The translations under genes and the position numbers were made by a program. 45,948 nt of DNA, from positions 1 to 45,948 of the forward strand of contig DYJU01000007.1 of assembly GCA_020722985.1 (NCBI GenBank), in the 5' to 3' direction. Shown one piece after another: positions 23 through 12,136 of this stretch (the first letter of the stretch is position 1; each line of letters begins with the position of its first letter). A model generated the notes under the pieces. The model ran no database searches, was not told the origin of the DNA, and worked only from the letters and a program-made list of their open reading frames with translations. The DNA is from Candidatus Methylomirabilis sp. GTDB lineage: Bacteria > Oederibacteriota > PGYV01 > DYJU01.

Positions 23-51
23 TTGACATTTACTTATTTTTTTTGTAAATT
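23..51 (+). promoter_or_regulatory. Sigma70-type promoter of the ilv-leu operon leader
   Basis: The -35 hexamer TTGACA (23-28) and the -10 hexamer TAAATT (46-51) are separated by 17 bp. The expected start, near 58, lies just upstream of the leader peptide's ribosome binding site (GGAG, 71-74). The same -10 hexamer with 17-bp spacing recurs at 42212-42240, which supports it as a real element in this genome. Confidence 0.7.
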
Positions 52-81
52 TAAACATCTTTTAAAAAAAGGAGATATAAA

Positions 82-192
82 ATGGCGTTAAAAAAAGAAA
101 GTAAAATAAAAAATAACGCTATTATTATATCTTCTTTACTTCCGGTAGTTGTCCTTACACTTACCGGGCTTCTGCTCGTTGTACTTAAATAA
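82..192 (+). CDS. Branched-chain amino acid leader peptide (attenuator peptide), 36 aa
   Basis: A 36-codon ORF starts with ATG 7 nt after GGAG (71-74) and ends at TAA 190-192. After a lysine-rich start it is very rich in the amino acids the downstream operon makes: Ile-Ile-Ile at residues 14-16, Leu-Leu 19-20, Val-Val-Val 22-24, Leu 25 and 27, Leu-Leu-Leu 30-32, Val-Val 33-34, Leu 35. It lies directly upstream of ilvD and inside the hairpin-forming region at 141-247. I infer a leader peptide whose translation rate senses charged tRNA-Ile/Val/Leu, like the ilvL and leuL leaders of enterobacteria. The alternative is a small hydrophobic membrane protein, since residues 14-35 would also make a membrane helix. 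The overlapping competing hairpins favour the leader reading. Confidence 0.75.
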   Translation: MALKKESKIKNNAIIISSLLPVVVLTLTGLLLVVLK

Positions 193-264
193 GTAAACGA
201 CGCAGAAAACCCGGAAAAATCCCTTAAAATCAGGTTTCCTGCGTCGTAACAGATGTCTTTTTTT
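141..264 (+). promoter_or_regulatory. Predicted transcription attenuator (competing hairpins 1:2, 2:3, 3:4)
   Basis: Three overlapping stems can be drawn by hand. Stem 1:2 pairs 141-148 with 161-168 (8 pairs, two of them G-U). Stem 2:3, the antiterminator, pairs 164-180 with 196-214 (about 16 pairs, with one 1x2 internal loop and one bulged C at 201). Stem 3:4, the terminator-like stem, pairs 197-214 with 230-247: nine perfect pairs, a mismatch, five pairs, then a weak end. Seven T follow at 258-264. Stems 2:3 and 3:4 use the same strand and exclude each other. The Val triplet and Leu 19-20 codons cover strand 1, so a ribosome stalled there would free strand 2 and favour 2:3, hence readthrough. 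A weak point is the 10 nt between the stem and the T run. Confidence 0.7.
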
Positions 265-302: not shown

Positions 303-349
303 ATTAAGCGTTTTTTAAAAATAATTAAAAATAAAAGGAGGTAATGAAA

Positions 350-2014
350 ATGCGTTCAGATAAGATGAAAAAAGGTTTAGAAAGAACACCACACAGATCA
401 CTTTTTAAAGCGATGGGGTATACAGATGAAGAATTAGAAAGACCTATTATAGGAGTTGTAAATTCATATAACGAAGTAATTCCCGGACATATTCATTTAG
501 ATAAAATAACAAAAGCAGCAAAGGAAGGCGTTCGTATGGCAGGCGGCACTCCTATGGAATTTCCAACAATAGGTGTATGTGATGGTATTGCAATGGGACA
601 TGAAGGAATGAAATATTCACTTGTCTCTCGTGAACTTATAGCAGATTCAGTTGAAATAATGGCTAAAGCATATCCTTTTGATGGTTTAGTTTTTATAACT
701 GATTGTGACAAGATAATCCCTGGTATGTTAATGGCTGCTGCGCGCATTAATATTCCTTCCATAGTAATAAGCGGTGGCCCGATGTTGCCAGGATACTACA
801 AAGGGAAAAAATATGATTTGGTATTAGGTGGTTTTGAAGCAGTGGGGCAATATCAGGCAGGCAAAATATCAAAAGAAGAACTTGAAATAATAGAAGAGGT
901 CTCCTGTCCTGGATGTGGTTCATGTGCTGGTATGTTTACAGCAAATACGATGAATTGTATGACAGAAGTTTTAGGAATGGGACTTCCAGGAAATGGCACT
1001 ATTCCTGCTGTTTATGCAGAAAGAATACGTTTAGCAAAAAAAGCTGGAATGAAAATTATGGAACTTATTCAAAAAGATATAAAGCCGCGTGATATATTGA
1101 CAGAAAAAGCATTTGAAAATGCTTTTACAGTAGATATGGCGTTAGGTGGATCTACAAATACCATTTTACATCTGCCTGCTATTGCTTATGAGGCAGGTAT
1201 TGAATTTGATTTAAAAAAGATAAATTCAATATCAGAAATGACACCAAATCTTTGTAAAATATCACCTGCAGGACATCACTACCTTGTTGATGTTTATAAT
1301 GCGGGTGGTGTTCAGGCAGTTATGAAAGAATTGACAAAGAAAAATCTTTTGCATCTTGACCTGATAACTGTAACTGGTAAAAAGGTAAAAGATAATATTG
1401 AAAAAGCAGAGGTTTTAGATTATGAAGTGATAAGACCTATTGATAATCCATATTCTAAAGATGGTGGGCTTACTGTAATTTATGGTAATTTAGCGCCAGA
1501 TGGTGCTGTTGTCAAACAATCAGCAGTTGCACCAGAGATGAAAAAAAGAGAAGGTAAGGCAAGAGTTTTTGATTTAGAAGAAGACGCTCAGAAGGCAATT
1601 TTAGATGGAAAGATAAAACCTGGTGATGTAGTTGTTATTAGATATGAAGGACCAAAAGGCGGCCCTGGTATGAGAGAAATGCTGGCTCCAACATCAGCAA
1701 TTGCAGGCATGGGACTTGATAAAGAAGTTGCTTTAATTACTGATGGAAGATTTTCAGGTGGAACACGAGGTGCTGCTATAGGACATATTTCGCCAGAAGC
1801 AATGGAAGGAGGTCCCATAGCTTTAATAAAAGAAGGAGATATTATTTCAATTGATATACCTGGTAAAAGAATTGATTTAAAAATAAGTGATGAAGAAATG
1901 GAAAAAAGAAAAAAAGAATGGAAAAAACCAGAACCCAAAATAAAGACAGGGGTTTTATACAGATATTCACAGATGGTATCATCAGCAGCCCAAGGTGCTG
2001 TTTTTAAAAAATAA
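350..2014 (+). CDS. ilvD: Dihydroxy-acid dehydratase
   Basis: The enzyme dehydrates 2,3-dihydroxy-isovalerate and 2,3-dihydroxy-3-methylvalerate to the 2-keto acids in Val, Leu and Ile synthesis. It is a cytosolic Fe-S enzyme of the IlvD/Edd family. Visible signatures are Cys119 in the segment [10 protein letters not shown], and Cys186, Cys189 and Cys192 in [18 protein letters not shown], which include the cluster ligands. The length of 554 residues is normal. An ATG at 344 also exists, but AGGAGG ends at 341, only 2 nt away. The ATG at 350 has 8-nt spacing and gives the usual family start MRSD, so I chose it. It is the first structural gene of the operon, 18 nt before ilvB. Confidence 0.96.
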
Positions 2015-2032
2015 AATTTAAGGAGTAATTTT

Positions 2033-3712
2033 ATGAGAGGAGCAAAAATCCTTTTAGAAAGTTTAAAAAAAGAAGGCGTGGATACTATATTTGGCTATCC
2101 TGGAGGAGTTCTTCTGTCATTGTTTGATGAAATATATAATGAAAAGGAGATAAAATTTTATCTTGTCCGTCATGAGCAGGGAGCATCGCATATGGCGGAT
2201 GGTTATGCTCGTTCTACCGGTAAGGTTGGCGTGTGCCTTGCAACATCTGGTCCAGGGGCTACAAATTTAGTAACAGGCATTGCAACAGCATATATGGATT
2301 CTATCCCGATTGTTGCTTTAACAGGGCAGGTAGCAACATCCCATATAGGTAATGATGCTTTTCAGGAAGTAGATATAACAGGCATAACAAGACCTATAGT
2401 TAAACATAATTATTTAGTAAGAAATTCAAAAGATATTCCTCAGATAGTAAAGAATGCGTTTCATATAGCATCAACAGGAAGACCGGGCCCTGTTTTAATT
2501 GATTTGCCAAAAGATATTTTAGCGGGTGAAGTTGAATCTTTTGTTTATCCTGAAACACCAAATTTACTTGGCTATAAACCCAAATATGAACCAAATAAAA
2601 TGCAGATAAAAAAGGCAGTTGAATTAATTGAAAAAGCAAAAAAACCCATAGTTTATATAGGCGGTGGAGTTATTGCATCATCTGCATATGAGGAACTTTT
2701 AAAATTTATTGAAAAAATAGAAGCACCTGTTACAACAACTTTATTAGGGATAGGTGTTGTGCCTTATAATCATCCTTTATACCTTGGTATGCTCGGAATG
2801 CATGGAACAAAATATGCAAATTACGCAATACAGGAATCTGATTTGATAATAGCAATAGGTGCGCGGTTTGATGACAGGGTAACAGGAGATGTAAAAACTT
2901 TTGCTCCTCATGCTGATATTATTCATATTGATATTGATCCTACATCAATAAGTAAAATTATCAGGGTTGATATACCCATAGTAGGTGATGCAAAAAATGT
3001 TTTAAAAGATTTACTCTCTGAAATCAAAGAAAAAAGGCATCCTGAATGGATAGAGAGAATTATGCAGTGGAAAAAACAGCATCCTTTAACTTTTTCCTGT
3101 GCAGGTGAAGGTTTAAAACCACAGATGATTGTTGAAAAAATTTCAGAATTGGCTGGTCCTGATGCAATAATATCAACAGAAGTCGGACAGAATCAGATGT
3201 GGACTGCTCAGTTTTATAAATTTACAAAACCAAGAAAATTTTTATCATCAGGGGGACTTGGCACGATGGGTTATGGATTTCCAGCAGCAATTGGTGCTCA
3301 GGTTGCCAACCCTGATAAATTGGTAATTGATATAGCAGGCGATGGTTCTATACAGATGAATATACAGGAACTTGCAACTGCTGTAAAATATAATTTACCT
3401 GTAAAAGTTGCAATTCTAAATAACGGCTGGCTTGGTATGGTAAGACAGTGGCAGGAATTATTTTTTGGTAAAAGATATTCCTATACTGATATATCAGGCA
3501 GTGTTGATTTTGTAAAAATTGCAGAAGCATATGGTGCTGCAGGATTTAAAGTTGAAAAAGAACAAAATGTGGAAAAAGTTTTGAAAGAAGCCTTTAACAT
3601 AAAAAAACCAGTTTTAATAGATTTTCATATATGTGGCGAAGAAAATGTATGGCCCATGGTGCCGGCTGGTGGTTCTTTGCATAATATGTTAGAAGAAACT
3701 GAACTGGCATAA
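2033..3712 (+). CDS. ilvB: Acetolactate synthase, large (catalytic) subunit
   Basis: A TPP-dependent enzyme that condenses two pyruvates to acetolactate, or pyruvate plus 2-ketobutyrate to acetohydroxybutyrate. It is the first common step for Val/Leu and Ile. The catalytic Glu48 lies in RHEQGA, near residue 48. The TPP motif runs from GDG at 436-438 to Asn463-Asn464, the expected distance. The 559 residues match family length. The start follows AAGGAG at good spacing. The small regulatory subunit gene ilvN follows 25 nt later, so the two should be made in concert. A catabolic acetolactate synthase is unlikely given the ilvN partner and the operon. Confidence 0.96.
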
Positions 3713-3737
3713 AAATTTATAATAAGGAGTTTTATTT

Positions 3738-4232
3738 ATGGAAAAGAAGAAAACAATTTCAGTTATGGTTGAAAATCATCCTGGCGTTCTTGCGAGAATC
3801 GCAGGTCTTTTTTCCAGCAGGAATTTTAACATAGAAAGTTTAGCAGTAGGTGAAACAGAAGATCCGGCAACTTCTCGTATGACTATTGTTGCAACTGGAG
3901 ATGAACTTGTTTTAGAACAAATTATTAAGCAATTAAATAAACTTATTGATACTTTAAAAGTTATTGATATGAGCAAAGAAGATTATGTGGAAAGGGAACT
4001 TGCCCTTATTAAAATAAATACAGAAGACAAAAATTTAACACATTTAATGCATATTATACATATCTTTAAAGGTAAAGTCCTGGATACCGCAACGGATAGT
4101 TTGATTGTAGAAATAACAGGAAATGATGATAGGATAAATTCTTTTACTCAACTTGTTCAGACTTTTGGAATAAAAGAAATGGTAAGGACAGGTATTGTTG
4201 CTCTTACGCGGTCAAAAAAACAAAAAGAATAA
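3738..4232 (+). CDS. ilvN: Acetolactate synthase, small (regulatory) subunit
   Basis: A regulatory subunit that binds valine and tunes the IlvB catalytic subunit. Residues 1-80 form an ACT domain with the classic opening MVENHPGVLARIAGLFS, followed by FNIESLAVGETED. Residues 85-160 match the second, C-terminal ALS small-subunit domain. The length of 164 residues is typical of the one-ACT IlvH/IlvN form. The symbols ilvN and ilvH are both used for this type. It sits between ilvB and ilvC with an AAGGAG site before the ATG. Confidence 0.95.
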   Translation: MEKKKTISVMVENHPGVLARIAGLFSSRNFNIESLAVGETEDPATSRMTIVATGDELVLEQIIKQLNKLIDTLKVIDMSKEDYVERELALIKINTEDKNLTHLMHIIHIFKGKVLDTATDSLIVEITGNDDRINSFTQLVQTFGIKEMVRTGIVALTRSKKQKE

Positions 4233-4247
4233 AATATACTTAATTAA

Positions 4248-5333
<1,086 letters not shown>

Positions 5334-5361
5334 TAAATTTTAAAGAAAGGGATGATAAGAG

Positions 5362-6900
5362 ATGGAAAGAATTTTGATATTTGATACAACTTTAAGAGAT
5401 GGAGAACAGATACCCGGTGCTTCTTTAACCAAAACAGAAAAAATAGAGATTGCAAAACAATTAGAAAAATTGAATGTTGATATAATTGAAGCGGGATTTC
5501 CTATCTCATCGCCTGGTGATATGGAAGCGGTAAAAGAAATAGGAAAAGTTGTTAAAAAACCAGTTATTGCAGGTCTTGCAAGGGCTGTTAAAAAAGATAT
5601 TGATGCCTGCTACGAATCTTTAAAAAATGTAAAAAGACCGAGAATACATACTTTTATTGGAACGTCTGATATACACGTTAAGTATATAACAAATACAACA
5701 AGAGAAGTCGTTTTACAGCGGGCAATAGATGCAGTAAAGTATGCGAGAAATTATTGCGATGATGTTGAATTTTCAGCAATGGATGCTGCAAGGACTGACT
5801 TTGACTATTTATGTAAAATAGTTGAAGAGACAATAAAAGCAGGCGCCACCACAATAAATATTCCTGATTCAGTTGGATACGCAGAACCGTATGAATTCGG
5901 CAATCTTATCAAAAAACTTATGAATACAGTTCCAAATATTAATAAAGCAATAATTGCGGTTCATTGCCATAATGACTTGGGTATGGCAACTGCAAATTCT
6001 ATGGCTGCTGTTTTAAATGGGGCAAGACAGGTTGAATGCACCATAAATGGGTTGGGAGAAAGGGCTGGAAATGCCTCTTTAGAAGAAATAGTTATGATAT
6101 TAAAAGTAAGAAAAGATCTTTTCAAGTTTGATACAAATATCAAAACAGAAGAAATCTATAAGACATCAAAACTTGTATCAAGATTAACAGGTATTACAGT
6201 TCAGCCAAATAAAGCAATAGTTGGCGCAAATGCATTTGCCCATGCATCTGGAATACATCAGGATGCGATTTTAAAAAAAGAATCAACTTTTGGGATAATG
6301 ACACCTGCATCAATAGGTATCCCAGGACATGAACTTGTTTTAACATCGCGTTCAGGCAGGCATGCTTTAAAGCACAGGTTGGAACATTTGGGTTTTAAAA
6401 TTAAAGATAAAGAGATAGATGAAATTTATGTGAAATTTTTAGAAATCGCTGATAAGAAAAAAGAAGTATTTGATGAAGACCTTTTAACGCTTATGTCGGG
6501 TAGGGGAGTTACAGTAAAACCACTTTACCAGTTAGAATATATTTATGTTGCAACAGGAAATAAAATTTTGCCAACAGCAACAGTTGCAATTAAAAAGGGA
6601 GACAAATTATATAAAAGTTCTGCAACAGGAGATGGGCCGGTTGATGCAACATATAAAGCGATAAATGAGATTGTAAAGGAAGAAGTGAAATTGATTGATT
6701 ATCAAATAAAATCAATAACAAAAGGAAAAGAAGCGCAGGGAGAAGTAAGTATAAGAATTAAAAAAGATGCAATAGAAGTAAATGGACGTGGCATTTCAAC
6801 AGACATAATTGAAGCAAGTGCAAAAGCATATTTAGATGCCCTTTCAAAATTAGAAAGAGAAAAACAAGTAAAAATTAAGAAAAAAGGATATAAATTATAA
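5362..6900 (+). CDS. leuA: 2-isopropylmalate synthase
   Basis: Condenses acetyl-CoA with 2-ketoisovalerate, the committed step to leucine. The N-terminal TIM barrel starts with FDTTLRDGEQ (residues 7-16), giving the metal-binding Asp and the catalytic Arg. HCHND at 201-205 supplies the metal-binding histidines, followed by GLGERAGNASLEE. The region from about residue 385 to 505 is the LeuA allosteric (leucine feedback) domain, so the enzyme should be leucine-inhibited. The length of 512 is normal. Ile replaces the usual Ser after DGEQ. Citramalate synthase and homocitrate synthase are related, but the adjacent leuCDB genes support LeuA. Confidence 0.93.
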   Translation: MERILIFDTTLRDGEQIPGASLTKTEKIEIAKQLEKLNVDIIEAGFPISSPGDMEAVKEIGKVVKKPVIAGLARAVKKDIDACYESLKNVKRPRIHTFIGTSDIHVKYITNTTREVVLQRAIDAVKYARNYCDDVEFSAMDAARTDFDYLCKIVEETIKAGATTINIPDSVGYAEPYEFGNLIKKLMNTVPNINKAIIAVHCHNDLGMATANSMAAVLNGARQVECTINGLGERAGNASLEEIVMILKVRKDLFKFDTNIKTEEIYKTSKLVSRLTGITVQPNKAIVGANAFAHASGIHQDAILKKESTFGIMTPASIGIPGHELVLTSRSGRHALKHRLEHLGFKIKDKEIDEIYVKFLEIADKKKEVFDEDLLTLMSGRGVTVKPLYQLEYIYVATGNKILPTATVAIKKGDKLYKSSATGDGPVDATYKAINEIVKEEVKLIDYQIKSITKGKEAQGEVSIRIKKDAIEVNGRGISTDIIEASAKAYLDALSKLEREKQVKIKKKGYKL

Positions 6901-6912
6901 GGAGAAAAGAAG

Positions 6913-8172
6913 ATGGGAATGACAATAGGAGAAAAGATACTTGCAGCAAAAAACAAGAAAAAATATGTGGAACCAGGAGAGTTAATAATTGCAGATGTTG
7001 ATATAGTTTTAGCAAATGATATAACTGCCCCACTTGCTATAAAAGAATTTAAAAATGCAGGTGCGAAAAAGGTGTTTGATAGAAAAAAAATTGTTTTGGT
7101 TCCTGATCATTTTACGCCAAATAAAGATATTAAATCAGCAGAACAGGCAAAAATTTTAAGGGATTTTGCCTATGAACAAAAGTTAACACATTATTTTGAA
7201 CAGGGGCAGGCAGGGATAGAGCATGTTTTACTTCCCGAAAAAGGAATAGTTGTGCCTGGTGATCTGGTTATTGGTGCTGATTCCCATACCTGCACCTATG
7301 GCGCTTTAGGTGCATTTGCAACAGGAGTGGGGTCCACGGATGTTGCTTTTGCGATGATGACAGGGAAAGCATGGTTTAAAGTCCCTTCCACAATAAAATT
7401 TATATATAAAGGTAAATTAAATAAATGGGTTTATTCAAAAGATTTAATTTTATTTACCATAGGTGATATTGGCGTGGATGGTGCTTTATATAAAGTTATG
7501 GAGTTTTCAGGTCCAGTTATAGAAAAATTGTCAATGGATGCAAGGATGACTATTTCCAATATGGCAATAGAAGCAGGTGGAAAAGCAGGTTTGATAGAGG
7601 TAGATGATATTACTTTAAAATATGTAAAGGGAAGAGCAGAAAGGAAATGGAAAATATTTAAAAGTGATAGAGATGCAAAATATGAAAAAATAATAGAATA
7701 TGATTGTGAAAAAATAGAACCGCAGGTTGCCATGCCTCATTTGCCTGAAAACACAAAGCCAGTTTCAAAGTTGGAAAAAGTTTCAATTGACCAATCTGTA
7801 ATTGGCTCCTGCACAAATGGAAGGATAGAAGATTTAAGAATAGCTGCAAAAATATTTAAAGGGAAAAATGTAAATTCACGGGTTCGCTGTATAATTTTAC
7901 CAGGCACACAGAATGTTTATCTGCAGGCATTAAAAGAAGGACTTGTAGAAATATTTATTAAATCAGGATGTGTTATGTCTCCGCCTACCTGTGGTCCGTG
8001 TCTTGGTGGACATATGGGTATACTTGCAAAAGGAGAAGTTGCAATCTCAACAACAAATAGGAATTTTGTTGGCAGGATGGGACATCCTGAGAGTTTTGTT
8101 TATCTTGCATCGCCTGCAGTTGCTGCAGCGTCTGCTGTTGCAGGTAGAATAATAAGTCCTGAGGATCTTTAA
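6913..8172 (+). CDS. leuC: 3-isopropylmalate dehydratase, large subunit
   Basis: Aconitase-family large subunit that isomerises 2- to 3-isopropylmalate together with LeuD. It carries [18 protein letters not shown], and the three 4Fe-4S ligands Cys300 (GSCTNGR), Cys360 and Cys363 ([10 protein letters not shown]). At 419 residues it is the shorter LeuC2/archaeal-type form; the E. coli-type protein is about 465. The start is 8 nt after GGAG (6901-6904). leuD follows after 21 nt, as expected for two subunits of one enzyme. Confidence 0.95.
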
Positions 8173-8193
8173 TTTTTTTTAGGAGGCACTAAA

Positions 8194-8691
8194 ATGCAGA
8201 TACGCGGTAAAGCATGGAAATTCGGAGATGATATAGATACAGATGCAATAATTCCAGCAAGATATTTAAATACATCTGATCCTTTTGAACTTGCAAAGCA
8301 CTGTATGGAAGATGCTGATAAAACTTTTATTCAAAAAGTTAAAAAAGGAGATATCATTGTTGCAGGTAAGAATTTTGGATGTGGAAGTTCCAGAGAACAT
8401 GCTCCTGTGGCAATAAAATATGCAGGGGTTTCCTGTGTCATTGCAAAAGATTTTGCCAGAATTTTTTTCAGAAATGCATTTAATATTGGACTTTTGATTT
8501 TTGAATCAGAAGAAGCATCACAAAAAATAAATGAAGGTGATGAGATTGAAATAGATATAAAAAAAGGCATAATTAAAAATTTAACAAAAAATGAAGAGTA
8601 TAAAGTAAAGCCAATACCGGAATTTATGCAGGAATTGGTTGCCGCAGGTGGTTTGATTAACTATGCAAAACAAAAGTTTAGTATAAAATGA
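8194..8691 (+). CDS. leuD: 3-isopropylmalate dehydratase, small subunit
   Basis: Small swivelling subunit that completes the LeuCD isomerase. It has the [14 protein letters not shown] opening (about residues 11-24) and the [10 protein letters not shown] substrate-binding loop starting near residue 62. The length of 165 residues fits the short LeuD2 family that pairs with the short LeuC seen just upstream. The RBS is AGGAGG, and leuB follows after 15 nt. Confidence 0.95.
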
Positions 8692-8706
8692 AAGGAGAAA
8701 GAAAGT

Positions 8707-9774
8707 ATGGGAAGAACTTATGAAATTGCTTTATTGCCGGGCGATGGAACCGGTCCAGAAGTCATAGGAGAAGGAGTTAAAGTTTTAAAAGTTGCAGCAG
8801 AAAAATACGGATTAAAACTAAATTTTAATCATTATGATTTTGGGGGCGAAAGATATAAAAAAACTGGGGAGACGCTACCTGACTCAGCAATTGAAGAATT
8901 TAAAAAACAGGATGCAATTTATTTAGGTGCCATAGGACATCCGGATGTAAAACCCGGGATTTTAGAACTCGGGATACTTTTAAAATTAAGATTTGCTCTT
9001 GACCAGTATATAAATTTAAGACCTGTAAAATTATACGAGGGTGTTGGCTGCCCCTTAAAAGATAAAGGACCAGAACATATTGATTTTATAGTTGTAAGAG
9101 AAAATACAGGTGGTATTTATACAGGGCAGGGGGGAGTTGCAAAAAAAGGAACACCAAATGAAATAGCAAGTCAGTTAATGGTTTATTCAAGGTTTGAAGT
9201 TGAGCGTTGTGTAAGATATGCGTATCAATTAACAAGAAAAAGAAATAAAAAAAATATGTTAACACTCGTTCATAAAACAAATGTTTTAACAAATTGTGGA
9301 GACTTATGGGTGCGTGTGCATAAAGAGATAGGAGATAAAGAATTTCCTGATATAATGCAGGATTATGCCCATGTTGACGCAACAACAATGTGGTTTATAA
9401 AAAATCCTGAATATTTTGATGTGATAGTTACAGAAAATATGTTTGGCGATATAATAACAGATTTAGGTGCTATGATACAGGGTGGTATGGGGATTGCAGC
9501 AGGTGGGAATATAAATCCAGAAGGCGTTTCAATGTTTGAGCCAATTGGTGGATCTGCACCCAAATATACAGGTAAAAATGTTATAAATCCTTTAGCGGCA
9601 ATCTGTGCAGGCGCTATGATGTTAGAAAACATAGGCGAAGAAAAAGCAGCCCGAGCAGTTGAAAATGCGGTGCAGGATGCTTTAAAATCAGGCAAAATAA
9701 AAAGTTTATCCGCAGGTAAAATGGGTTTAGGAACAAAAGAAGTTGGTGATCTGGTTGCATCACTTGTAAAGTAA
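8707..9774 (+). CDS. leuB: 3-isopropylmalate dehydrogenase
   Basis: NAD-dependent oxidative decarboxylase giving 2-ketoisocaproate for leucine. The beta-decarboxylating dehydrogenase family is shown by LLPGDGTGPEV at the start, the substrate segment LLKLRFALDQYINLRP, VRENTGGIYTG, and the metal-binding aspartates in ENMFGDIITDLGA. GGSAPKYTGKNVINP forms the cofactor region. At 355 residues the length is right. Isocitrate and tartrate dehydrogenases share this fold, but the position after leuACD makes LeuB by far the best call. Confidence 0.92.
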   Translation: MGRTYEIALLPGDGTGPEVIGEGVKVLKVAAEKYGLKLNFNHYDFGGERYKKTGETLPDSAIEEFKKQDAIYLGAIGHPDVKPGILELGILLKLRFALDQYINLRPVKLYEGVGCPLKDKGPEHIDFIVVRENTGGIYTGQGGVAKKGTPNEIASQLMVYSRFEVERCVRYAYQLTRKRNKKNMLTLVHKTNVLTNCGDLWVRVHKEIGDKEFPDIMQDYAHVDATTMWFIKNPEYFDVIVTENMFGDIITDLGAMIQGGMGIAAGGNINPEGVSMFEPIGGSAPKYTGKNVINPLAAICAGAMMLENIGEEKAARAVENAVQDALKSGKIKSLSAGKMGLGTKEVGDLVASLVK

Positions 9775-9804
9775 TATAAATAAAAATTTTTTAAGGAGGA
9801 GAAA

Positions 9805-10818
9805 GTGAAAGAATATAATGTCGCAGTGATGGGGGCAACTGGCGCTGTTGGCGTTGAAATGTTAAAAATTTTAGAGGAAAGAAAATTCCCCGTAAAGAAT
9901 TTAAAACTTCTTGCTTCAGAAAGATCCGTTGGAAAAGAAATGGTTTTTTCGGGCAAAAAAATAAAAGTTGAACTTTTAACCCGGGATTCCTTTAAAGGTG
10001 TTGATATAGTTTTGGCTTCGGCTGGAGCTTCTATTTCAAAACAATTTGTAAATGATATACTTTCTGCAAATGCACTTTTGATTGATAACTCTTCTGCTTT
10101 CAGGATGGAAAAAGATGTCCCGCTTGTTGTTCCTGAGATAAATCCCGAAGATGTAAAATTAAACAAAGGCATAATTGCAAATCCTAATTGCACAACCATA
10201 GTAATGATAGTTCCTTTAAAACCATTGCATGATTATGGAAAAATAAAACGCATAGTTATGTCAAGTTATCAGGCAGCTTCTGGTGCTGGTGCAAAAGCAA
10301 TGGCAGAACTGGAACAGCAGACAAAGGATTGGTCGCAGGGCAAAGAATTAAAGGTTGAAAAATTTCAATATCAATTACTTTTTAATTTAATTCCACATAT
10401 TGATGTTTTTACAGAAAACGGATATACTAAAGAAGAGATGAAAGTTGTGAATGAAACAAGGAAGATAATGCATGCGCCTGATATGCAGATAACCTGCACG
10501 ACTGTGCGCGTTCCTGTTTTAAGGGCACACTCAGAATCAATAAACATAGAAACAGAAAAAAAGATTACTGTAGAAAAAGCAAGGGAACTTTTAAGCAAAG
10601 CACCAGGTGTAAAGTTAGAGGATGATCCGGCTAATAAAAAATATCCAATGCCACTTTTTGCAACAGGAAAAGATGATATTTTTGTAGGAAGAATAAGAGA
10701 AGATTTTTCAAGGAAAAATTGTTTGAATTTATGGGTATCTGGTGACCAGATAAGAAAAGGCGCTGCGTTAAATGCAGTTCAAATAGCAGAAATAATCGTA
10801 AAAGAAGGCTTAAAATAA
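9805..10818 (+). CDS. asd: Aspartate-semialdehyde dehydrogenase
   Basis: Reduces aspartyl phosphate to aspartate semialdehyde, the branch point to Lys/diaminopimelate, Thr, Met and (through Thr) Ile. The NADP motif GATGAVGVEML is at residues 10-20. Catalytic Cys129 lies in NPNCTTI, and the substrate-binding HSE segment (RAHSESI) is present. The start is GTG at 9805 after AAGGAGG; no upstream ATG fits. Its place between leuB and purB ties aspartate-family supply to branched-chain synthesis and to the same leader. Confidence 0.94.
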   Translation: MKEYNVAVMGATGAVGVEMLKILEERKFPVKNLKLLASERSVGKEMVFSGKKIKVELLTRDSFKGVDIVLASAGASISKQFVNDILSANALLIDNSSAFRMEKDVPLVVPEINPEDVKLNKGIIANPNCTTIVMIVPLKPLHDYGKIKRIVMSSYQAASGAGAKAMAELEQQTKDWSQGKELKVEKFQYQLLFNLIPHIDVFTENGYTKEEMKVVNETRKIMHAPDMQITCTTVRVPVLRAHSESINIETEKKITVEKARELLSKAPGVKLEDDPANKKYPMPLFATGKDDIFVGRIREDFSRKNCLNLWVSGDQIRKGAALNAVQIAEIIVKEGLK

Positions 10819-10846
10819 TTTTTATATTTAAGGAAGGATTAAAAAG

Positions 10847-12136
10847 ATGATACAGCGTTATACACTTCCTGAAATGGGGAATTTATGGAGCGATTATGCA
10901 AAATATAAATCATGGTTGGATGTTGAACTTGCTGTTTGTTATGCCTGGATGAAAAAAGGAAAAATACCTTTAAACGATTACAGGATAATAGTTAAAAAAG
11001 CAGATTTTAATATAAAAGAAATTGAAAAAATAGAAGAGAAAGTCAGACATGATGTAATTGCTTTTTTAACTTCAGTTGCAAAAAAAGTAGGTAAATCATC
11101 ACGTTTCATTCATATGGGAATGACATCAAATGATATGCTTGATACTGCAATGTCATTACGTCTATTAAAAGCATGTGATATAGTTGAAAAAGATTTAAAA
11201 AATTTTATAAGGATTTTAAAAAACCTTGCTTTAAAACATAAAAACACAGTAATGATAGGTAGGACTCATAATATCCATGCTGAACCAACAACATTTGGTT
11301 TAAAAGTTTTAATATGGTATTTTGAAATGAAAAGAAATTTAGATCGTTTATTAAAAGCAAAGGAAGAAGTTAAAGTGGGAAAAATTTCAGGTGCTGTTGG
11401 AAATTATGCGAATATATCGCCAGTTATAGAAAAAATTGCCTTAAAAAAATTAGGGCTAAAACCAGCAGATGCTACAAATCAAATAATACAGCGTGATAGG
11501 TATGCTTTTTTAATGTCAGTTTTAGCAATAATAGCAGGTGGCATTGAAAAAATAGCAACAGAAATAAGAAATCTGCAGCATACAGAAATTTTAGAAGTTG
11601 AAGAACCATTTTCAAAAGGACAGAAAGGTTCTTCGGCTATGCCGCATAAAAGAAATCCGGTTGTTTGTGAGCAGTTATCAGGACTTACGCGTCTTGTTAG
11701 AACCAACACACTTGCTGCTTTTGAAAATATTGCTCTCTGGCATGAAAGGGATATTTCTCATTCTTCTGTTGAAAGAGTAATCATCCCTGATAATTTTATT
11801 TTGATTAATTATATGCTTAATAAAATCTCATGGATTATGGAAAATTTAAATGTATATCCTGAAAATATGAAAAAAAATTTAAATCATCTAAAAGGGCTTG
11901 TATTTTCTCAAAGGGTTTTGCTTGCTTTAATAGAAAAAGGTATGACAAGGGAACAGGCATATAAAATAGTTCAGGAAAACGCAATGAAAATCTGGGCAGG
12001 AGAAAAAAAGGATTTAAAGACTTTACTTTTAGAAGATAAAAAAGTAAGAGCAAAATTAAGTGAAAAAGAAATAGAAGATTTATTTGATATAAATTATTAT
12101 TTGAAAAATATTGATGAAATTTATAAGAGGGTTTAA
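10847..12136 (+). CDS. purB: Adenylosuccinate lyase
   Basis: Cleaves SAICAR in IMP synthesis and adenylosuccinate in AMP synthesis, releasing fumarate. It is a fumarase/aspartase superfamily member: MTSNDMLDTA near the start, RTHNIHAEPTTFG, and the superfamily signature SSAMPHKRNP starting at Ser262-Ser263. The 429 residues match the short, B. subtilis-type PurB. It is the last gene of the long operon, 28 nt after asd. A repeat-filled, gene-free stretch follows, and I see only a weak A/T hairpin (12142-12172) as a possible terminator. Confidence 0.95.
   Translation: MIQRYTLPEMGNLWSDYAKYKSWLDVELAVCYAWMKKGKIPLNDYRIIVKKADFNIKEIEKIEEKVRHDVIAFLTSVAKKVGKSSRFIHMGMTSNDMLDTAMSLRLLKACDIVEKDLKNFIRILKNLALKHKNTVMIGRTHNIHAEPTTFGLKVLIWYFEMKRNLDRLLKAKEEVKVGKISGAVGNYANISPVIEKIALKKLGLKPADATNQIIQRDRYAFLMSVLAIIAGGIEKIATEIRNLQHTEILEVEEPFSKGQKGSSAMPHKRNPVVCEQLSGLTRLVRTNTLAAFENIALWHERDISHSSVERVIIPDNFILINYMLNKISWIMENLNVYPENMKKNLNHLKGLVFSQRVLLALIEKGMTREQAYKIVQENAMKIWAGEKKDLKTLLLEDKKVRAKLSEKEIEDLFDINYYLKNIDEIYKRV

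Follow-up and report, generated by a model that had tools for sequence, protein, structure and literature searches.

A probable ribosome-mediated attenuator with a mixed Ile/Val/Leu leader peptide ahead of the ilv-leu-asd-purB operon in an uncultured bacterial phylum

The leader region and the operon

The window, by which we mean the whole stretch of 45,948 nucleotides that was analysed, is contig 94 of a 2.13-Mb genome assembly that is 84% complete, and belongs to Candidatus Goldbacteria. Among the named genomes of the collection, the nearest relative is a Candidatus Goldbacteria MAG (G037, same genus), whose ilvD is 92% identical. Pfam confirmed the enzyme families of the ten-gene operon beginning with ilvD (Table 1), and the distance of ~5 kb from ilvD to leuA is kept in the relatives.

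Ahead of this operon we found the 36-codon Ile/Val/Leu leader that an earlier note on this DNA had claimed, preceded by a predicted promoter, P1, and by a Shine-Dalgarno (SD)-like GGAG. Ile, Leu and Val make up 18 of its 36 codons, as compared with 24.5% in the operon (binomial p = 8e-4). Other short ORFs rich in these residues were also listed in the window (27, three of them with an SD-like sequence); among these, the leader ORF alone both has an SD sequence and stands directly ahead of an operon start. A short ORF with end-product codons between a promoter and the first gene is the arrangement of an attenuator.

Folding recovered the three stems of the earlier note at matching coordinates. 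The leader RNA was much more stable than its dinucleotide shuffles (z = -8.0 for the whole leader), and the 3:4 hairpin alone gave -20.6 kcal/mol (z = -3.9 vs shuffles). The apical loop of the 2:3 hairpin extends into the stop codon of the leader (190-192). As strand 3 is common to 2:3 and 3:4, these two hairpins are mutually exclusive, as claimed earlier and as is usual for an attenuator. The 10-nt gap between the stem and the T run, which had been flagged as a weak point, is real.

Table 1. Positions of the leader features and of the downstream operon in the window
Feature	Positions	Strand	Sequence or parts	Basis or remark
Promoter P1 of the leader transcript	23..51	+	TTGACA, 17 nt, TAAATT	Consensus scan, 10/12; predicted
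SD-like sequence ahead of the leader ORF	71..74	+	GGAG	Read directly
Leader peptide ORF	82..192	+	MALKKESKIKNNAIIISSLLPVVVLTLTGLLLVVLK, then stop; 36 codons	Kept in 10 genomes
Candidate control codons	121..156	+	Ile14-16, Leu19-20, Val22-24, Leu25	5' of strand 2; putative role
1:2 hairpin	142..167	+	CCGGTAG...CTTACCGG; 142-148/161-167 and a short inner helix	Folding
2:3 antiterminator hairpin	164..214	+	164-168/210-214, 170-180/196-207, apical helix 182-186/191-195	Folding
3:4 hairpin, candidate terminator	197..247	+	197-205/239-247 and 207-211/233-237	Folding
Spacer, 3:4 stem to T run	248..257	+	AACAGATGTC; relatives AAxAGGTCT	Alignment
Run of seven T	258..264	+		Read directly
Second promoter-like site P2	276..304	+	TTGACA, 17 nt, TAATAT	Between attenuator and ilvD; predicted
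Operon	344..12136	+	ilvD, ilvB, ilvN, ilvC, leuA, leuC, leuD, leuB, asd, purB	Pfam

Conservation of the leader upstream of ilvD

We found ilvD in 40 of the 45 genomes of the phylum; within the order, 10 of 14 genomes have a homologous leader upstream of it (G000, which is the window's own genome, G037 of the same genus, and G034, G038, G039, G040, G041, G042, G043 and G044). Among the order genomes without the leader, G033 and G036 gave no ilvD match, the contig of G035 stops within ilvD, and G032 had no leader within 1.5 kb upstream of ilvD although the upstream region is present. A covariance model built on the segment from strand 2 to the T run was searched against the 45 phylum genomes; it returned exactly one copy in each of the ten leader genomes, always upstream of ilvD, and just two marginal matches in the other 35 (E 0.01-0.03).

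At the place of P1, TTGAC and a -10-like hexamer were present in 10/10 aligned homologues, and the alignment placed an SD-like sequence before the other leaders too, so that all 10 leaders carry both elements. The peptides differ in sequence and share a plan of the type A-I-x-x-S-x-x-L-L-P-V-V-V-L-L-L-T-G-L-L-x-V-V-L. All of them keep Ile, Val and Leu, and codons for these residues stand at the candidate control position in every homologue. G038, G039 and G040 share one and the same peptide, and their leader ORFs differ by silent changes alone. The SD-like sequence, the conservation and the silent changes together suggest that the leader ORF is translated.

A conserved peptide with a hydrophobic C-terminal half might also be expected if the ORF were a small membrane protein gene with a terminator of its own, unrelated to attenuation. 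We regard this as highly improbable: the homologous peptides vary much (29-78% identical to that of the window), the hydrophobic stretch is interrupted by Arg or Pro, and selection on the pairing of the coding end with the downstream strand goes further than the peptide requires, as described below.

Selection on the hairpins beyond the peptide

We compared each leader with 1000 synonymous recodings, in which the downstream sequence was held constant. In the window, G037 and G034, hardly any recoding gave a 2:3 hairpin as strong as the natural one (p = 0.001 each); for most other leaders p was 0.01-0.1. Fisher combination over seven non-redundant leaders gave p ~5e-9, a figure that, like those of the arm-swap test below, is not an exact probability, as species relatedness contributes to both tests. 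The 1:2 stem, the candidate protector hairpin over the control codons, was no stronger than its synonymous recodings (p = 0.24); it folds in the window and several relatives, is absent as such in G038-G040 and G042, and has no independent support beyond coding.

In the arm-swap test, the ORF end of one species was joined to the downstream strand of another, for seven leaders and 5040 assignments. For 2:3, the matched arms ranked best of all 5040 assignments, and for 3:4, 8/5040 were as good as the matched arms. The apical helix of 2:3, which has the stop codon in its loop, is wholly altered in sequence from leader to leader and is paired in 7/7 of them (TACTT/AAGTA, TTCTT/AAGAA, CTCGC/GCGAG, CTCGCC/GGCGGG, CTCGCC/GGCGAG, GTCC/GGAC and GTCCT/AGGGC). 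RNAalifold favoured 3:4 and gave both-sided changes in 7/17 pairs. Column-wise counting for 2:3 on the MAFFT alignment was unsuitable, as the strand lengths differ, and the arm-swap test took its place.

The covariation check proposed for 2:3 and 3:4 was thus positive, the arms of both co-varying in the relatives. Alignment of the region upstream of ilvD likewise returned the peptide, its Ile/Val/Leu codons and the competing stems as conserved. Neither outcome that the earlier note had named against itself, relatives without the peptide or the stems, or a peptide kept with the hairpins lost, occurred.

Proposed mode of attenuation

The leader quite probably acts as a ribosome-mediated transcription attenuator, through which the supply of charged Ile, Val and Leu tRNAs is sensed. 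RNA polymerase would start at P1, and a ribosome would follow on the leader ORF. When a branched-chain aminoacyl-tRNA is scarce, the ribosome would stall at Ile14-16, Leu19-20 or Val22-24/Leu25. As these codons lie upstream of strand 2, the stalled ribosome would leave 2:3 free, strand 2 (164-186) would pair with strand 3 (191-214), and transcription would go on. When all three are plentiful, the ribosome would reach the stop codon in the apical loop and break 2:3; strand 3 would then pair with strand 4, and transcription would end at or near the T run. Such switching by stalling and by the stop codon is the classical logic of the E. coli leaders. We infer the stalling, the termination and the read-through into ilvD, and control of the ilv genes via read-through is likely. 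Conservation and covariation lend good support to the earlier proposal of ribosome-mediated attenuation by a mixed Ile/Val/Leu leader; what had to be corrected concerns the second promoter, the gene order and the novelty, which are taken up below.

The termination step

Across the leaders, the gap between the hairpin and the T run measures 8-12 nt, with the consensus AAxAGGTCT. This spacer is conserved both in sequence and in length, and the T run less so: seven T follow the spacer in the window and in G037, and the run is weak or absent in G041 and G042. An intrinsic terminator normally has no gap between its hairpin and its T run. Judged by sequence, 3:4, with its gap and with T runs that are poor in some relatives, departs from the canonical form of an intrinsic terminator. 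Sequences of the classical type, a hairpin plus a T run, are present in these genomes as well, where the canonical termination signal seems to be in use. The AAxAGGTCT motif was not above chance at other sites in the same genomes. The AGGTCT spacer as a general terminator element was rejected, as its four outside matches equalled the count of a reversed-pattern control and had no such leader or hairpin nearby.

Ten of the 14 order genomes encode Rho, among them a member of the window's own genus. Its RNA-binding domain was not found in the incomplete assembly of G000, and this absence is probably due to incompleteness. The argument that a genome having no Rho proves intrinsic termination was dropped in view of the 10 genomes that encode it.

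With the same leader, 3:4 might act together with another factor (Rho, Nus factors) at AAxAGGTCT, or on RNA stability. This reading, possible but doubtful to our mind, overlaps the explanation preferred here and differs in the last step alone. The constancy of the spacer beside a variable T run and the distribution of Rho fit it; the seven T in the window and G037, the classical signals present in these genomes and the chance-level occurrence of the motif elsewhere speak against it. We consider it unlikely that the strong 3:4 hairpin, AAxAGGTCT and the poor T run form a non-canonical signal by which this lineage terminates or pauses transcription; if true, a classical leader-peptide sensor would drive a different kind of termination step. 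The locus is a test case for the spacing of hairpin and T run, and the principle of attenuation is unchanged.

A second promoter-like site and an intervening methyltransferase gene

A TTGA...TATAAT-like site comparable to P2 was present upstream of ilvD in 11/11 order genomes in which that region was inspected; the automatic promoter scan missed some of these sites, which lie further upstream. Promoter-like matches are commonplace in AT-rich DNA (3 found in the region vs 2.2 expected), and therefore the weight of P2 rests on its repeated position. P2 probably provides a basal, non-attenuated supply of the operon. The leader does stand ahead of a ten-gene ilv-leu-asd-purB operon, as the earlier note described, but because of P2 and its counterparts the attenuator is probably not the sole control of it.

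Between the leader and ilvD, a class I methyltransferase gene is intact in G039, G041 and G043 (L088, L090, L091), truncated in G044 and seemingly decayed in G042 (remnants L092, L089); the remaining five leader genomes gave no orthologue. The protein matches Pfam Methyltransf_11, and its best NCBIfam match, trans-aconitate methyltransferase, scores far short of the curated cut-off; one may only guess at a link to isopropylmalate methylation. The ancestral arrangement appears to have had the methyltransferase gene between the leader and ilvD. Terminator-like hairpins precede P2 in G038, G039, G040, G043 and G044. Where the gene or these hairpins intervene, read-through from the leader into ilvD would be limited.

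These features would suit a different history, in which the methyltransferase gene was the original target, or the leader transcript is a trans-acting short RNA, and P2 drives ilvD independently: the gene lies directly 3' of the leader in three genomes, and hairpins and P2 separate it from ilvD. We find this rather improbable, however, as the gene is lost or decayed in 7/10 genomes in which the leader structure is kept, no further terminator-like hairpin was seen in the window between 265 and ilvD, and the leader was never found away from ilvD. Since the leader was retained after the loss or decay of the methyltransferase gene, ilvD is the more likely lasting target of the attenuator.

Other leaders and regulators in the phylum

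No T-box (RF00230) was found upstream of the operon, in the window's own genome or in the 14 order genomes, and no amino-acid leader family of Rfam matched the window, which gave chance matches only. In the same genomes, there was no Trp- or His-rich leader within 600 bases of trpE or hisG. We therefore rejected attenuation as a general feature of the lineage; of the operons checked, this one alone has such a leader.

Two further designs of Ile/Val/Leu-rich leader stand ahead of ilvD in other families of the phylum and support the attenuator reading. The first, in six genomes from families f8 and f9, has a hairpin over the stop codon; the peptide ends take forms such as SVISFLVVVVVG, SVISLLVVVLVVG or LAVISVVVTVVG. 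These leaders (L093, L097, L098, L100, L104, L105) lie within ~420 bases upstream of ilvD. A distance of 5-9 nt separates a -10 hexamer (TTGACA, ~18 nt) from the start of their ORFs, which have no SD sequence, and so the mRNA is probably leaderless. The hairpin over the stop codon is of the GTGGGC-TAA-CGCCCAC type, and no clear terminator was seen after it. One Corynebacterium ilvB leader is likewise reported to be devoid of a ribosome binding site, according to the title of a reference in PMC10272879. In G022 (family f14, L106), a GTG-started ORF, VNISASAKSILTVVLLTLEVHPL, located 268-382 bases upstream of ilvD, overlaps an antiterminator (GCACCC/GGGTGC); downstream of these stands a canonical terminator, in which the T run follows the hairpin directly, ending in TTTTTTCTTTTT.

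Relation to known leader-peptide systems

The ilvL (ilvGMEDA) and leuL leaders of E. coli have branched-chain control codons, strands 1-4, mutually exclusive 2:3 and 3:4 hairpins, and a stop codon near strand 2. The leader of the window follows the same strand plan, but its T run lies 10 nt from the terminator hairpin, with a P2-like site downstream, whereas in E. coli the T run follows directly. The novelty of one leader combining Ile, Val and Leu had been overstated, as E. coli ilvL and Corynebacterium ilvB leaders are already such. A comparative study by Vitreschak et al. in 2004 reportedly listed Thermotogales and Bacteroidetes/Chlorobi as well among the groups having leader-peptide systems. 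According to a 2010 survey, such systems were known from Proteobacteria and Actinobacteria, to which it added Firmicutes (PMC2965389).

The ilvD leader of S. aureus likewise stands ahead of ilvD, the first gene of an ilv-leu operon, in a low-GC genome (PMC5794164). It has three Ile and then two Leu codons and a terminator hairpin 3' of them, as described from prediction plus mutants (PMC5794164). Its antiterminator was reported to pair with the poly-U of the terminator, whereas in the window 2:3 shares strand 3 with 3:4; its codons are Ile/Leu as against Ile/Val/Leu here, and the likeness meant is one of design (PMC5794164). The earlier statement that Firmicutes mostly use T-boxes has to be qualified in view of this leader, which makes them not users of T-boxes alone.

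The ilvB-II, ilvB-OMG and Leptospira ilvB motifs of several phyla have upstream ORFs rich in branched-chain (and Thr) codons; attenuation has been proposed for these as well, upstream of ilvB rather than of ilvD (PMC10272879). Actinobacterial ilvB leaders show runs of Ile/Val/Leu codons overlapping hairpins, as in the window, and in Streptomyces changes of the ilvB leader codons were reported to be without effect, other parts of the attenuator being missing (PMC1262725).

In the part of the small literature on Goldbacteria that we saw, no earlier report of attenuation was found. The device looks like a new member of a classical, known kind, here in an uncultured phylum. Unusual are the spacer that precedes the T run, the P2-like site, and the changing leader design upstream of one gene within the phylum; such leaders would seem to arise or be replaced with ease.

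Elsewhere in the window, the segment 18504-27974 encodes a glycoside hydrolase family 8 protein of 1322 aa and, next to it, a protein of 1800 aa that has a bacterial Ig-like domain. In the segment 29291-34865, the gene for a TPR protein of 1028 aa comes first, and after it come those for two ExbD-like proteins and one TonB C-terminal protein.
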